In this document: piece after piece, positions 3,082 to 23,909 of the stretch | Position numbering within the stretch: position 1 is the first letter of the stretch | How the letters are laid out: each line of letters begins with the position of its first letter | Origin: Pseudomonadales bacterium | GTDB taxonomy: Bacteria > Pseudomonadota > Gammaproteobacteria > Pseudomonadales > Pseudohongiellaceae | Assembly (NCBI GenBank): GCA_023257655.1 | Contig: JALRBQ010000013.1 | Coordinates: 1-64,000, forward strand | Reading direction: 5' to 3' | DNA length: 64,000 bases | Position numbers and translations under genes: made by a program | The notes under the pieces: model-generated | Database searches by the model: none | The model's input: only the letters and a program-made list of their open reading frames with translations | Told to the model about the DNA's origin: nothing

Positions 3082-3194
3082 ACCCCGCCCGGTCCATCAC
3101 CCACCCCATCGTGTTTGACTGCCCCCTGCTCACTCTATAGACTGCCCTCAATCCGGTGTTGCACCGCAAGACCGGATCGAGTTGATTCAGGTAC

Positions 3195-3312
3195 CCGGCC
3201 GCTTGCTTCACTGGTCTGGTTAATTGGGAAGTTGGTTAGACTCCAACACTGCCCCCGCAACGGTAATTCGCCGGCATCACCGGCGCTAAGTCCGATACCA
3301 GCCTGATCGACT
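3195..3312 (+). promoter_or_regulatory. Cobalamin (B12) riboswitch
   Basis: Conserved cobalamin-riboswitch sequence runs in order: the TTAATTGGGAA segment near 3218, the core CTGCCCCCGCAACGGTAA at about 3249-3266, a small GC hairpin, and the B12-box-like AAGTCCGATACCAGCCTG at about 3288-3305. A further hairpin, TGATG-C-AGC / GCT-A-CATCA with loop GGAGG, lies at 3321-3343 and may belong to the expression platform. It is on the same strand as btuB and ends about 130 nt before the start codon, so adenosylcobalamin should repress the btuB unit. Confidence 0.92.
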
Positions 3313-3439
3313 TTTCACTTTGATGCAGCGGAGGGCTACATCAGTGCTTGAGTCGCGTCTTGTGCTCATCACCCTGTCCCCTCCCTGATGAATAAATCCA
3401 TCTGTCATTCTTGGCAGGTTCATTCATTGGGAGAAAATC

Positions 3440-5980: not shown

Positions 5981-6895
5981 ATGCCGATCACAATCCTGCA
6001 GCTTCGCCCTCTTACTTCCCTTCTGCTCTGCCTGATCCTCTGCACCGCCATGCTGACGCCGAGCCGGGGTCTCGCACAAGCAGTGGAGGTGACGGATGAT
6101 GAAAACGCCAAAGTACGGCTTGCACACCCTGCTGAGCGCATCATCTCATTGGCACCCTCACTCACTGAGCTGTTGTTCGCGGCCGGCGCCGGCGACAAAC
6201 TCGTCGGCGTGGTGGAATACAGCGACTATCCACCCGCTGCCAGTGCCCTGCCGATCGTCGGCCGGTTTGATCTGCTCGACATGGAGCGCATCCTGCAACT
6301 GGAACCCGATCTCATCGTGGCGTGGCAATCCGGGAATCCCCGTGCCTCGGTGAAGCGCTTGCGGGAGCTTGGTCTCACCGTCTATATCGCCGAACCCAAG
6401 CAGCTCAGTTCAATTCCTTCCCACATAGAACGTCTGGCGGCACTGGCTGGCACGGCTGACACAGCCGACGTCGCAACTGCGGCATTTCGCGAACGACTGG
6501 CGCAACTGAGTACCCGCTATGAAACGAGAACACCTGTCAGCGTGTTCTATCAGGTCTGGGATTTGCCGCTGATTACCGCCGGCGGTAACGAACTGATTAA
6601 TGACATCATCACGCTGTGTGGCGGTCGCAATATCTTCGCGGATATCAGCCTCGTCGCTCCCAAGGTCAGCGTGGAAGCCGTACTGGCACGAAATCCGACC
6701 GCCATTATCGCCAGCGGCATGGATATCGAACGACCGGAATGGCTGGATGACTGGAAGCGCTGGCCTGGAGTGCCCGCCGTCGCCAAAGACAATCTCTTCT
6801 TTGTGCCGCCAGAATTGCTGCAACGACATACTCCGCGTGCATTGCAAGGTGCGCAGATGATGTGCGAGCAGATTGAAATCGCCCGTACCCGCTAA
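5981..6895 (+). CDS. btuF: Cobalamin-binding periplasmic protein, BtuF-like
   Basis: This 304-residue protein has an N-terminal signal sequence with a hydrophobic core around residues 9-32 (ending GLAQA). It is followed by a class-III substrate-binding fold: AERIISLAPSLTELLFAAGAGDKLVGV, then LEPDLIVAW, and in the second lobe NELINDIITLCGGRNIF. These match BtuF/HemT-type corrinoid binders that deliver substrate to BtuCD. It closes the btuB-cobO run. No BtuC or BtuD gene is visible nearby, so the partner permease must be encoded elsewhere. Its 3' end overlaps the convergent cobC-like gene by 4 nt. Confidence 0.85.
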   Translation: MPITILQLRPLTSLLLCLILCTAMLTPSRGLAQAVEVTDDENAKVRLAHPAERIISLAPSLTELLFAAGAGDKLVGVVEYSDYPPAASALPIVGRFDLLDMERILQLEPDLIVAWQSGNPRASVKRLRELGLTVYIAEPKQLSSIPSHIERLAALAGTADTADVATAAFRERLAQLSTRYETRTPVSVFYQVWDLPLITAGGNELINDIITLCGGRNIFADISLVAPKVSVEAVLARNPTAIIASGMDIERPEWLDDWKRWPGVPAVAKDNLFFVPPELLQRHTPRALQGAQMMCEQIEIARTR

Positions 6896-8174: not shown

Positions 8175-8663
8175 TCAGGGCAGCAAAACGACAATGGCCT
8201 GAATGCACAAGGCTGACATTATACCCGCTAACACATCATCAAGCATGATTCCCATGCCCCCTTTCACCTGTCGGTCCACCCACTTGATGGGCCACGGCTT
8301 GAAAATATCGAGCACCCGAAACAGGCCGAAGCCAATCAGCGCCCAGCTCCAGCCAGCCGGCGCCAGAAACATCGTTATCCAGTACCCTACAAACTCGTCC
8401 CAGACAATGCCACCATGGTCATGCACACCCAGATCGCTGGCGGTCTTGCCGCACAGCCATACCCCCAGCAGAAAACTGCCGACGATCAGTGCCGCATGCG
8501 CCAGAGGCGTCATGGGCGGGAGCGCCAGATAGATCAGCATCGCCACTGCGGTACCGGCAGTCCCTGGCCCCCTCGGCACCGCCCCGCTACCAAACCCAAA
8601 CGCGAGAAAATGCACCGGATTGCGCCAAATCGATTGCGGTGTGCGTGTGGCTGGACTCGTCAT
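8175..8663 (-). CDS. pgpA: Phosphatidylglycerophosphatase A
   Basis: This 162-residue inner-membrane enzyme removes the phosphate from phosphatidylglycerophosphate to give phosphatidylglycerol. The typical N-terminal motif [18 protein letters not shown] is followed by several hydrophobic helices. The acidic catalytic stretch [18 protein letters not shown] and the [29 protein letters not shown] segment are both diagnostic of the PgpA family. It lies between thiL and ribA on the same strand, the normal arrangement in pseudomonads, and is probably co-transcribed with them. Confidence 0.94.
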
Positions 8664-8679
8664 TCAGGCCTCGGTGGGA

Positions 8680-9687
8680 TTAACCAAAATGCTGGTACGC
8701 GCTACCCGTGATCGGGAGACTAACACCAGATGCTGTAACGAGCTGCAAGCCCGGTTCCGACACGATCTCGCCGACACGGGTCAGTGGAACACCCAATGCA
8801 TGGGCCGCTGCCTCGACGGTAGCGCACGCTGCCGGTGGGACGGTTACACAGAGTTCGTAGTCATCGCCGCCAAACAAGGCGGCGAGTTCACAATTGGCCG
8901 GCGACATGCTCTGCGCTGCCGGAATCGAGACGGGCAGGGTTGAGGCATACAATCGGGCACCGACACCGCTGGCGCTCAGAATATGCCCCAGATCACCGGC
9001 CAATCCGTCTGACAGGTCGATGCCACTGGTTGCCTCGACAGCCACGGCCTGTGCCAGGCCGATGCGGGGCTGGGGCTGGAAATAAGCCTGCAGAAAATGG
9101 CGGTGTTGGGATTGCTGCGGCATGCCTTCCACACAGACGAACTGTGGTCCAAGCGCGCTGGGCAATCCCATCGCCACCAGCGCAATCGCCGCATCACCCA
9201 GCGTGCCGGAGACATAGACCTGGTCACCCACTCGTGCCCCTTGCCGTCGCAAGACGCGGGTTGGCGACACCAACCCCTGTACCTGGATGCTGATGGCGAG
9301 CGGCCCGCGCACGAGATCACCACCAACCAGAGGACAATTGAACTGCTGCGCGAGGGCGAGTAGTCCCCGACTGAAACCGGCGAGCCAGTTCGCATCGGCC
9401 TGCGGCAGGCTGAGACCCAGGGTGAAACACAACGGGGTGGCCGCCATCGCCGCCAGATCACTCAGATTGACCGCGAGCGCACGATTGCCGATGGCTTCGG
9501 CATCCGCACCCACAGGGAAATGCACGCCTTCATTGAGCACATCCAGCGACAGGGCCAGTTGTGAATCAGGCGGTACCGTCAGAAGTGACGCATCATCGCC
9601 GATACCGGCGACCACGCCTTCACGGGCAAATCCAAGTCCGGAGTCGGCAAAGTAGCGGCGAATGATATCGAATTCGGATTGACTCAT
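8680..9687 (-). CDS. thiL: Thiamine-monophosphate kinase
   Basis: This 335-residue protein of the PurM/ThiL ATP-binding family phosphorylates thiamine monophosphate to the active cofactor thiamine diphosphate. Evidence is the N-terminal FDIIRRYF, the magnesium/ATP segment GIGDDASLL, VNLSDLAAMAATP, LVGGDLVRGP and the later GIDLSDGLAGDLGHIL and FGGDDYELCVTV. It lies between nusB and pgpA on the minus strand with short gaps. Its product is needed by Dxs, encoded 6 kb away. Confidence 0.95.
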   Translation of the reverse strand: MSQSEFDIIRRYFADSGLGFAREGVVAGIGDDASLLTVPPDSQLALSLDVLNEGVHFPVGADAEAIGNRALAVNLSDLAAMAATPLCFTLGLSLPQADANWLAGFSRGLLALAQQFNCPLVGGDLVRGPLAISIQVQGLVSPTRVLRRQGARVGDQVYVSGTLGDAAIALVAMGLPSALGPQFVCVEGMPQQSQHRHFLQAYFQPQPRIGLAQAVAVEATSGIDLSDGLAGDLGHILSASGVGARLYASTLPVSIPAAQSMSPANCELAALFGGDDYELCVTVPPAACATVEAAAHALGVPLTRVGEIVSEPGLQLVTASGVSLPITGSAYQHFG

Positions 9688-22268: not shown

Positions 22269-22940
22269 TTACGACTTGGCTCTGAACACGCGGGTCAGCC
22301 AGGCGCCAATGTCCACAATCTCCGCGGGGCACACCGCATGCTCCATCGGGTAGCTATGGAATTCCGGCGCGAAGCCTCGCTCCTGGAGCGTCGCCTCACT
22401 GCGACGACCAAGCAATTCCGGCACCACAGTGTCGCGATTGCCATGACAGATCAGCACCGGCAGCCGATGCTGGACCGGATCGATGCGAATACTTGCCGCC
22501 GTGGCGAAATAGGTGGACAGGGCCATGATGCCACCCAGTCGTTGCGGATAGGTGAGCCCGGCCTGAAAGGCCACAGCGCCACCCTGGGAGAAGCCGGCGA
22601 TGACGATGCGCTCTGGAGCGATGCCGCGTTCGATCTCGCGGGCGATGAGATCGTGGACCCAGCTCGCGGATTGAAGTAATTGTGCCTCGTCGACATGCCT
22701 GTCGATATCGAGCATCTTGATGTCGTACCAGGCCGGCATGACATACCCACTATTAATAGTCACAGGAATCGACGGCGCGTGAGGAAACACAAAGCGGATA
22801 CCGAATGCGGTTGGCAGCTCTAGCTGCGGCACGATGGGCGCGAAGTCATTGCCGTCGGCACCGAGCCCGTGCAACCAGATCACTGAGGCAGTGACTGTGA
22901 CCCCGTGTGGTGATTCCATTTCAACTGCTGGCAAATACTG
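22269..22940 (-). CDS. Carboxylesterase / lysophospholipase (alpha/beta hydrolase)
   Basis: This 223-residue protein belongs to the phospholipase/carboxylesterase (EstB, acyl-protein thioesterase-like) family. Evidence: VIWLHGLGADGNDFAPIV, the nucleophile elbow AGFSQGGAVAFQAG (Ser near residue 117), and the late LICHGNRDTVVPELLG with Asp and the YPMEHAVC segment with the catalytic His. It is cytoplasmic, with no signal peptide. I set the start at the ATG preceded by AAGGAAGGG, giving the family's normal length. It probably hydrolyses short-chain esters or acylglycerols. Confidence 0.88.
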   Translation of the reverse strand, partial: QYLPAVEMESPHGVTVTASVIWLHGLGADGNDFAPIVPQLELPTAFGIRFVFPHAPSIPVTINSGYVMPAWYDIKMLDIDRHVDEAQLLQSASWVHDLIAREIERGIAPERIVIAGFSQGGAVAFQAGLTYPQRLGGIMALSTYFATAASIRIDPVQHRLPVLICHGNRDTVVPELLGRRSEATLQERGFAPEFHSYPMEHAVCPAEIVDIGAWLTRVFRAKS

Positions 22941-23150
22941 CATGCGTCCCTTCCTTTGTTGACTCTGTTGACTCTGAGTTCTCGCTTTGATTGGTGACAA
23001 GCTCACTAGCACCCGTGGCAGTCTGTGACCGCTGGCTGCACCCCATTGTGATGGTTAGTTGACCTGACACGCAAGTTCCGCGACGAGCGACGACCTCAGG
23101 TTGGTCAAACGACGAACCACATACTCTCAAGGTATAGCCAGGCCTCGTCG

Positions 23151-23167
23151 CGCACAAATAAGGTGCG
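23151..23167. promoter_or_regulatory. Putative NtrC-type enhancer site
   Basis: CGCAC-AAATAAG-GTGCG is a perfect inverted repeat whose core GCAC-N7-GTGC matches the known NtrC binding consensus. It is centred about 92 bp upstream of the -24 GG of a sigma-54-like promoter, the usual enhancer distance. Binding by NtrC itself is inference, since other sigma-54 activators use different sites. Confidence 0.55.
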
Positions 23168-23248
23168 TGGTGAATCAAATTGAGGCTATCAGCCATCGCG
23201 TTTTCACCAGGGACTGCCAGAAAGCCAGAGATTTGGGCGGCCTCACAG

Positions 23249-23265
23249 TTGGCACAGGACATGCA
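23249..23265 (+). promoter_or_regulatory. Sigma-54 (RpoN) promoter
   Basis: TTGGCAC-AGGAC-ATGCA matches the RpoN consensus YTGGCAC-N5-TTGCW with one mismatch. GG is at 23251-23252 and GC at 23263-23264, with the invariant 10-nt spacing. Transcription would start near 23275. No protein gene lies downstream on this strand before the terminator at 23370. Confidence 0.68.
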
Positions 23266-23275
23266 TTATTTCTAA

Positions 23276-23406
23276 TAAGCACAGTGGTGATTGCTGCCAT
23301 GCAGAACTGATCTCTCCCTCAGTCCCTGCGCAGTTTGGCCTATTCGCCACTGGGTCGATGGGTGATGATGCCCGCGCAGTGAGAAATCCTGCGCGGGCTT
23401 TTTTTT
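23276..23406 (+). ncRNA. Candidate sigma-54-dependent small RNA
   Basis: The interval of about 130 nt runs from the predicted RpoN start to an excellent intrinsic terminator, with no credible protein gene on either strand. Near the 5' end is a small CTGC-cat-GCAG hairpin, and CTCTCCCTC at 23312-23320 could pair with ribosome-binding sites. It does not match a family I recognise (no tRNA, 6S, tmRNA or SRP features). Pseudomonas NrsZ and CrcZ show that RpoN-driven sRNAs exist, but homology here is not claimed. The flanking 22941-23435 gap holds nothing else convincing. Confidence 0.6.
23370..23406 (+). terminator. Strong rho-independent terminator
   Basis: A perfect 10-bp GC-rich stem GCCCGCGCAG / CTGCGCGGGC (23370-23379 and 23389-23398) with a 9-nt loop is followed by eight T. 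The direction is plus. The next genes downstream are on the minus strand, so it can only end a transcript starting in the 22941-23369 gap. Confidence 0.93.
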
Positions 23407-23435
23407 GCACCGCCACCCGTCAGCAATTCACAGTC

Positions 23436-23909
23436 TCAAATACATTGAGTGTGAAGCGGCAAATACACATCCGTAATGGCGTCGCTCGCCTTCACTGTCG
23501 GACCGACATTCACGTAGTGAAAAATAATCGGGGCACCAGAAACAGTCTCGCCACTGCGGGGCAGCCAGTCATACACCAGATACTTCACCGCCTGATTATC
23601 CAATCGCGATCCAATGTCGCGCGCGAGCGCGCAGCGACAGGTCGGGATCGTACTCTCGACGATGCCTAAGGTATTGGGTTCGACTGTTTCATGGATCGAC
23701 AGACAAAAATCGACCCGGTGTTCTGAATCCGGCGCAGTACCCGGCAGATAGTGCAACCCGTAGGTTCGATACCGTTCCTGATCCAGTAATTGGTGCTGCA
23801 ACTTCCATTGCACGAGCTGCAAGACAGTCGCGTGTTCTGTTGCAGGGCTGTCACGGTGAGGCAGCAGCGCCACCCTGGTCTCGGGAAAATTGACCAGCCT
23901 GACTTCCAT
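23436..23909 (-). CDS. GyrI-like / AraC effector-binding domain protein
   Basis: This 157-residue protein is a stand-alone effector-binding domain of the kind found at the C-terminus of some AraC/MerR regulators and in SbmC/GyrI. Supporting features: MEVRLVNFPETRVALLPHRDSPATEH, DFCLSIHETVEP, GRCA-like CRCALARDIGS, and the end DVYLPLHTQ, matching the usual IYLPL end. There is no helix-turn-helix. It may bind small molecules or proteins. It is followed on the minus strand by nothing before the sRNA terminator, and it is preceded by a VOC protein 39 nt upstream. Confidence 0.74.
   Translation of the reverse strand: MEVRLVNFPETRVALLPHRDSPATEHATVLQLVQWKLQHQLLDQERYRTYGLHYLPGTAPDSEHRVDFCLSIHETVEPNTLGIVESTIPTCRCALARDIGSRLDNQAVKYLVYDWLPRSGETVSGAPIIFHYVNVGPTVKASDAITDVYLPLHTQCI

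Follow-up and report, generated by a model that had tools for sequence, protein, structure and literature searches.

The window, the 64,000-nt stretch of DNA that was analysed, contains an intergenic region bounded by two genes on the − strand: a carboxylesterase/phospholipase gene upstream (22269–23012; Abhydrolase_2 domain match) and a gene for a GyrI-like domain protein downstream (23436–23909). On the + strand, this region carries an NtrC-like enhancer palindrome, GCAC-N7-GTGC (GCACAAATAAGGTGC, 23152–23166), centred 91 nt before the −24 element of a sigma-54 promoter, TTGGCAC-N6-TGCA (TTGGCACAGGACATGCA, 23249–23265), which is kept in the family members described below. The promoter has the spacing GG (23251–23252), N10, GC (23263–23264) and places the expected +1 at about 23275, 12 nt past the GC; this start is predicted from the promoter rather than mapped. 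The predicted small RNA (sRNA) of about 133 nt (23275–23407, +) is convergent with the GyrI-like gene and ends in an intrinsic terminator (23370–23406, +), identified from the sequence and the alignment, in which GCCCGCGCAG (23370–23379) forms a perfect 10-bp stem with CTGCGCGGGC (23389–23398) around a 9-base loop, followed by eight T residues (23399–23406). With the genes on either side both encoded on the − strand, there is no + strand gene for this terminator to end. The first-pass annotation had reported the palindrome, the RpoN promoter and the 10-bp stem terminator with eight T, and all three are indeed in place on the + strand.

The palindrome is not rare: GCAC-N7-GTGC occurs 5 times in the window against 2.42 expected, and a count of 5 is reached in 9 of 100 shuffles. 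The window contains a single TTGGCAC-N6-TGCW promoter pattern against 0.13 expected, with one found in 13 of 100 shuffles, and nowhere else in the 64 kb, on either strand, is a perfect 10-bp stem followed by a T run (at least seven T in eight positions). A generic terminator scan missed this terminator because its loops were limited to 3–8 bases and the loop here has 9. No sigma-70-type site was found at the sRNA locus by a generic signal scan, and in Rfam 15 the sRNA interval gave only weak matches, below the curated gathering threshold of every family; the best by E-value was anti-hemB, at 19.9 bits against a threshold of 49.5 (E 0.025). Elsewhere in the window, a cobalamin riboswitch (3172–3320, +) scores 62 bits, above its Rfam threshold.

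In the predicted fold, helix P1 is formed by a 5′ arm, CAGUGGUGA (23282–23290, +), and a 3′ arm, UCGCCACUG (23344–23352, +), and encloses the inner helix P2 region (23296–23339, +). The latter bears the hairpin ACUGA-[UCUCUCCC]-UCAGU (23306–23323, +), whose loop displays a candidate anti-Shine-Dalgarno seed, CUCUCCCU (that is, CTCTCCCT; 23312–23319, +). The 7 bases CUCUCCC within it have a predicted unpaired probability of 1.0 in the fold of the window RNA. A possible mini-hairpin, GGGU-GAUGAU-GCCC (23360–23373, +), overlaps the 5′ arm of the terminator.

Homologues in relatives and covariation

None of the 29 relatives' loci around the esterase gene carries the sRNA element. Among these loci and our own (L022–L051), the GyrI and glyoxalase neighbours and the upstream TGGCAC-N6-TGCA occur at our own locus only; merR and arsP recur with the esterase in most of the relatives' loci examined, with no sRNA beside them. 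The first impression of non-conservation that this synteny gave was overturned by a homologue at a different locus in another genome (G079). A 621-base query against 84 genomes of the genus matched two, the window's own genome (G000) and G079, in the latter elsewhere in the genome; a 281-base query yielded short matches only and was of no use. A first covariance model, built from these two sequences, matched 9 of the 84 genus genomes at E ≤ 1, and eight were accepted on reading (G000, G079, G098, G082, G080, G088, G010 and G007; E 1e-42 to 1.4e-3); two matches, G095 and G098:C12, were judged non-members.

A second model (R2), built from those eight, was searched over 390 genomes of the order and matched 45 at E ≤ 0.05. 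Nine were accepted among those opened, five in the genus (G000, G010, G098, G086 and G026) and four in the sister genus g23 (G305, G285, G192 and G242). The R2 matches L096, L097, L098, L102 and L103 are leader-like RNAs, not members, and the remaining printed loci were rejected too. The pattern AGTTGGCAC-N6-TGC-N36-64-CTCTCCCT, run over genome contigs, gave 22 stretches, 14 of which are members. They come from 13 assemblies, since L123 and L132 belong to the same one, and 12 of these assemblies are genus genomes already counted. The pattern member L124, cut at a contig end before the terminator, is unplaced among the counted genomes, and the L126 RNA is identical to the G094 RNA over 140 bases. 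Six further stretches were chance or coding matches (L125, L130, L131, L133, L135 and L136), and two, L121 and L128, were sigma-54 RNAs of another kind in which the motif also occurs. The two metagenome-assembled genomes (MAGs) concerned, Ectothiorhodospiraceae NORP100 and Gammaproteobacteria bin10089, share this sigma-54 RNA, which has ATTACTCTCCCTT directly before its terminator.

A third model (R3), built from 16 sequences and searched over 137 genomes of the family, matched 52 at E ≤ 0.01, 29 of them in the genus. With membership judged by eye from promoter, loop and terminator, R3 and reading gave 22 members among the 84 genus genomes (G000, G079, G098, G082, G080, G088, G010, G007, G086, G067, G005, G061, G094, G099, G002, G022, G013, G026, G085, G058, G084 and G071); the genus matches G003, G016, G023, G093 and G097 were rejected on reading. 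Nine g23 genomes contain a member (G305, G285, G192, G482, G483, G490, G487, G486 and G242, the last accepted from the R2 search and absent from the R3 listing), and genus g146 contributed one accepted match, G491. The other 62 genus genomes yielded no accepted match under strict filters; two of them (G008 and G100) have an unread weak match, and many are incomplete MAGs. The sRNA may thus be less than universal even in the genus. Among the R3 matches opened in other genera, most were leaders or other RNAs; besides G008 and G100, the unread R3 matches include G506, G495 and G497.

The rejected R3 matches fall into several kinds. Some belong to another, strongly conserved sRNA-like element (G003, G023, G093, G097, G500 and the second matches of G085 and G481), which is possibly a sibling sRNA. 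This element, read on the reverse of the AGGGAGAGATAAATG strand in L193–L203, occurs in 11 genomes of two genera and in 7 more, contains CATTTATCTCTCCCTTGATAG, shares the anti-Shine-Dalgarno stretch and has a terminator behind it in those printed; its Rfam matches, RF02278 and RF02837, are weak and below threshold. Others are leader-like RNAs (G492, G496, G494, G481 and G501) or C-rich RNAs of genus g143 (G479, G477, G474 and G476), and G016, G264 (a g23 match) and the second G192 match were classed as other. The g143 loci (L312, L313, L317 and L318) encode a different sigma-54 RNA with several CCCCCC stretches and GGTGC/GCACC repeats upstream, which may play the same role as the window sRNA.

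The predicted pairing is retained across the genus members aligned. In the alignment of eight sequences, pairing holds in 88.5% of cells, and both sides have changed at 18 of 26 pairs; because the members are related, the shuffle counts are not probabilities, and 0 of 500 shuffles reach the observed pairing, double-change count or covariation score, with slid partners pairing at 33–45%. Further pair types are unexceptional in this alignment: 89 of 500 shuffles have as many. The alignment of 16 sequences over P1 and the terminator, all rows of which come from the genus and which, like the first, contains no g23 RNA, shows 91% pairing and double changes at 15 of 19 pairs (0 of 500 shuffles), and its further pair types are reached by 5 of 500 shuffles. 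The double changes are distributed over both helices. Single folds of the g23 RNAs predict two simple hairpins lacking the long closing stem.

Within the RNA, CUCUCCC is the most conserved stretch of the 16-row alignment and is complementary to ribosome-binding sites; the loop reads CTC[TA]CCC in 16 of 16 rows, being CTCACCC in G079. The motif is largely unpaired in most of the 21 members folded singly; in the folds predicted for G079 and G242, most of it is paired. The guess, made at first pass, that CTCTCCCTC is a seed for ribosome-site pairing is strengthened by this conservation of CTCTCCC and by its predicted exposure in most members folded.

Two other accounts of the locus fare poorly. 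An assembly of motifs by chance, giving no transcript, would suit a palindrome that is common on its own, but the elements recur jointly at other loci and the helices covary, which makes this account extremely improbable. That the locus gives a short mRNA encoding a small protein is just as hard to credit: frames of 13–38 codons do exist in members, but no small reading frame is shared across the 13 members examined, whose longest frames have no protein in common, although a few that are closely related have similar ones, and the indels of the alignment do not come in threes. It is very likely, judging from the sequence comparisons, that the intergenic stretch of the window makes a small regulatory RNA.

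Proposed upstream control and possible nitrate-operon leaders

GCAC-N7-GTGC represents the NtrC-site consensus. We scanned the 30–180 nt upstream of 32 members, excluding G061, whose contig starts at the promoter. An exact palindrome is present in 13 of the 32 and one with at most one mismatch in 22, compared with means of 0.115 (maximum 3) and 2.4 (maximum 6) over 200 dinucleotide shuffles. The best site is centred 90–94 nt before the −24 box in 15 of the 32 members, 8 of these sites being exact. At the same spacing, G080, G088 and G086 have GCCC-N7-GGGC, with two mismatches yet still symmetric. An exact site is absent from group D (G026, G085, G058, G084 and G071), G491 and six of the nine g23 members, so the assignment of the activator is less clear there; the exact g23 sites lie further off, at 129–147 nt.

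The window genome (3.1 Mb, 93% complete, 101 contigs) has one sigma-54 gene (rpoN) and a true NtrC, scoring 753 bits against a cut-off of 558.6. Its P-II gene (glnK-type, PF00543), an expected NtrC target, is preceded by the promoter TGGCACGGGCCATGCA and, 124 nt upstream, by a GCAC-N7-GTGC with one mismatch; the type of promoter and enhancer seen at the sRNA is thus the one that an expected NtrC target has in that genome. The genome contains 26 instances of TGGCAC-N6-TGCW, and the same pattern reversed, as a control, gives 14. The promoter, the upstream site and the presence of rpoN and ntrC place the sRNA, as a prediction, in the functional class of NtrC/sigma-54-activated RNAs. The first-pass annotation had proposed such an RpoN/NtrC-controlled sRNA and had suggested looking for its promoter, enhancer and terminator in close relatives. 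That proposal gains support at the sequence level from the host genes and from the relatives, in which these elements recur together at other loci and the RNA pairs are kept through double changes, with the enhancer the least constant part. The same genome has a second sigma-54 RNA candidate (L056 ~1105–1340, −; G000:C8), with TGGCACAGGACTTGCA, a one-mismatch GCAC-N7-GTGC 103 nt upstream, CTCTCTC and then GGGCGGCAATAGCCGCCC-T6; behind it are short same-strand frames only, with no clear gene.

In seven of the eight first members, no same-strand gene lies directly behind the RNA. In L127, the RNA converges on an Lrp/AsnC gene (PF01037), next to which lie an aldehyde dehydrogenase gene, the gene for the arginine N-succinyltransferase AstA (PF04958) and one for a class-III aminotransferase; judged by sequence likeness, this gene order is shared by L126 and L141, and G010 and G007 have an Lrp/AsnC gene at that place with an aminotransferase-like frame beyond. 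The single strong copy in G079 follows a nasT-type gene, which encodes an ANTAR response regulator, and precedes an nrtA-type NMT1_2 gene, its terminator about 30 nt ahead of the latter, with nitrite reductase further on. This copy is placed like a nas leader and may, from its position, be one. The claim that the RNA cannot be an attenuator therefore holds for the window locus, where the neighbouring genes are on the − strand, and does not extend to every relative, as the homologue in G079 precedes a nitrate operon. The G079 cluster also contains a second, different and weakly scoring element before a putative porin gene (no Pfam match), and the short frames that separate its ANTAR gene from the sRNA homologue resemble a broken nasS (likeness only; L081 ~8470–8900; L054 1083–1404).

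ANTAR proteins recognize a hexaloop with A1 and G4. The mini-hairpin of G079 has the loop AAUGAU, with both A1 and G4, and overlaps the terminator arm; the GAUGAU of the window lacks A1. Leader-like RNAs were also noticed in L096, L097, L098, L102, L103, L303, L304, L310 and L081 (~6415–6580), each with a sigma-54-like promoter, whose −12 element is GC or GA, and a hairpin with an A1/G4-type hexaloop overlapping the terminator. The genes behind them are porin-like in L096 and L102 (PF13372, PF13609) and of the NMT1_2 (nrtA) type in L103. These RNAs are likely to be NasT-type leaders in several families. NasT is reported to bind a nas leader RNA (PMC3795266).

The window RNA might be the leader of a nitrate-assimilation operon, or the relic of one, with a terminator once controlled by NasT (ANTAR) and an operon since lost here. 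The G079 homologue, which was the first found and the only one recovered by plain DNA search, speaks for such an origin through its place between nasT-type and nrtA-type genes and through its AAUGAU loop, which fits the ANTAR rule and overlaps the terminator arm; leaders of nrtA-type and porin-like genes in other families share the sigma-54 promoter, loop and terminator and score with our models. We nevertheless consider it improbable. The lack of a same-strand gene right behind seven of the eight first members, the position of several members beside Lrp/AsnC and arginine succinyltransferase genes and the missing A1 in the window loop argue against it, as does the retained CUCUCCC hairpin; moreover, a relic would hardly retain a perfect terminator and an enhancer. 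An ANTAR search of G000 (93% complete) gave no match, which is weak evidence because the control genomes gave none either, although the same Pfam profile does match the G079 protein by hmmscan.

The placement of the G079 copy suggests, at the level of gene order, a link between the sRNA and the leader. A combined account, which we entertain as a speculation of fairly low probability, would make the two one gene with two roles: an NtrC-driven, terminated nas leader would also act in trans through its C-rich loop, the free sRNA would be found in lineages whose operon is absent from that place, as a survivor or as the origin, and the mini-hairpin would be a remnant or a forerunner of a NasT target.

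Proposed mechanism and candidate targets

We favour, with reasonable though not full confidence, a free-standing sRNA gene of the NtrC regulon whose product acts in trans as an anti-Shine-Dalgarno RNA through its loop. Under nitrogen limitation, phosphorylated NtrC would bind GCAC-N7-GTGC about 115 nt before the start and activate sigma-54 polymerase at TTGGCAC-N6-TGCA. The resulting RNA of about 133 nt would end at the intrinsic terminator, and its long closing stem would present the hairpin loop (A/U)CUCUCCC, which in several mRNAs would most likely pair with a ribosome-binding site rich in purines (AGGGAGAG) and thereby lower their translation. The parts themselves, their joint recurrence, the covarying fold in the genus, the near-constant loop and the presence of rpoN and ntrC are observed; transcription, NtrC as the activator, pairing in trans, repression as its sign and the targets are what we infer from them.

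CrcZ is a sigma-54 RNA, and the window RNA could likewise be a decoy that titrates a protein rather than a base-pairing RNA. CrcZ itself is described as a protein-binding non-coding RNA and a global regulator (PMC6606865). The single-stranded motif conserved here is only one, C-rich and complementary to ribosome-binding sites; by eye, the alignment contains no conserved repeated A-rich or GGA motif, and no known decoy in Rfam matches over threshold. A decoy is therefore very unlikely, and anti-Shine-Dalgarno pairing remains our preferred mode of action.

A search for AGGGAGAG-N2-10-ATG in 12 genomes gave 162 matches, and the backwards control 57; this excess only reflects the composition of ribosome-binding sites. 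Among the matches listed, which do not extend to G098, the one that recurs in 11 of the 12 genomes was rejected because it is the reverse strand of a different conserved sRNA that also contains the AUCUCUCCCUUGA stretch, and a 13-base complement in G000:C14 was discarded as it lies inside a longer open frame. The best true candidate among the matches listed is hppA (membrane pyrophosphatase, PF03030), in 2 of the 12 genomes; at its start, 11 bases are complementary to the loop in G000 and fewer in G086. Further candidate starts belong to TonB-receptor plug proteins (PF07715; different receptors in G000, G007 and G082) and to one protein without identification, recurrent in G305 and G285. Judged on the matches that were read, these target candidates are too weak to claim.

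Comparison with known systems

NrsZ of Pseudomonas aeruginosa PAO1 is induced by NtrB/C together with RpoN when nitrogen is limiting; it is reported to be about 226 nt long, to lie between ntrC and PA5126, to be processed, to have the motif ACAGGCAG and to activate rhlA (PMC8395346, PMC9308961). The window RNA resembles it as a free-standing sRNA for which we propose NtrC/sigma-54 control, and differs in being about 133 nt long and in lying beside the esterase gene on contig C15, whereas ntrC is on C42. The NrsZ motif ACAGGCAG is absent from the window; of 16 members, G061 alone has it, within stem P1. No TGGCAY-N5-6-TGC promoter was found around ntrC in G176, a 6.2-Mb member of the order and the sole genome examined for this. 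The lack of resemblance to NrsZ asserted at first pass is borne out as far as the motif, the locus and the length go, with NrsZ taken from its description.

NfeR1 (alpha-r14) of Sinorhizobium meliloti, in the alpha-proteobacteria, is a nitrogen-responsive RNA of 123 nt with anti-Shine-Dalgarno motifs that pair at translation starts; it has a sigma-70 promoter, is activated by LsrB and repressed by NtrC, and carries three redundant motifs (PMC10746234). The window sRNA is of similar size and also has a candidate anti-Shine-Dalgarno loop, but it has a sigma-54 promoter and one conserved loop. In Pseudomonas stutzeri A1501, NfiR is under NtrC control and NfiS under sigma-54 control; NfiR starts 29 bp past a predicted sigma-54 site, yields a 54-nt product and targets nifD (PMC6606865). 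Going by that description, NfiR and NfiS share with the window sRNA the control by NtrC or sigma-54 that we propose for it.

Nas leaders controlled by NasT/NasR are, like the window sRNA, short RNAs with an intrinsic terminator, and the G079 copy is placed like one; unlike them, the window copy has no same-strand gene behind it, and its loop lacks A1. In Pseudomonas, such a nas leader is named NalA. No paper on an sRNA in Pseudohongiella (Pseudohongiellaceae, Pseudomonadales in the NCBI lineage) was found in the mainly openly accessible literature, nor, among the matches listed there, any title on such an RNA in this bacterial group. With no Rfam match over threshold and without the features of NrsZ and NfeR1 that were tested, the RNA makes up an sRNA family of its own, new in itself but of a functional kind already known, set apart from these systems by their descriptions.

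The NtrC- or sigma-54-driven sRNAs described in PMC6606865, PMC8395346 and PMC9308961 are from Pseudomonas. If our reading is true, the relatives of Pseudohongiella, mostly represented by metagenome-assembled genomes, would have a riboregulator for nitrogen starvation whose promoter, fold and seed are defined. Its gene adjoins arginine succinyltransferase genes in several species and precedes a nitrate-assimilation operon in one, and this leader-like copy raises a concrete, testable question: how a leader under riboregulation becomes a free sRNA, or the reverse.
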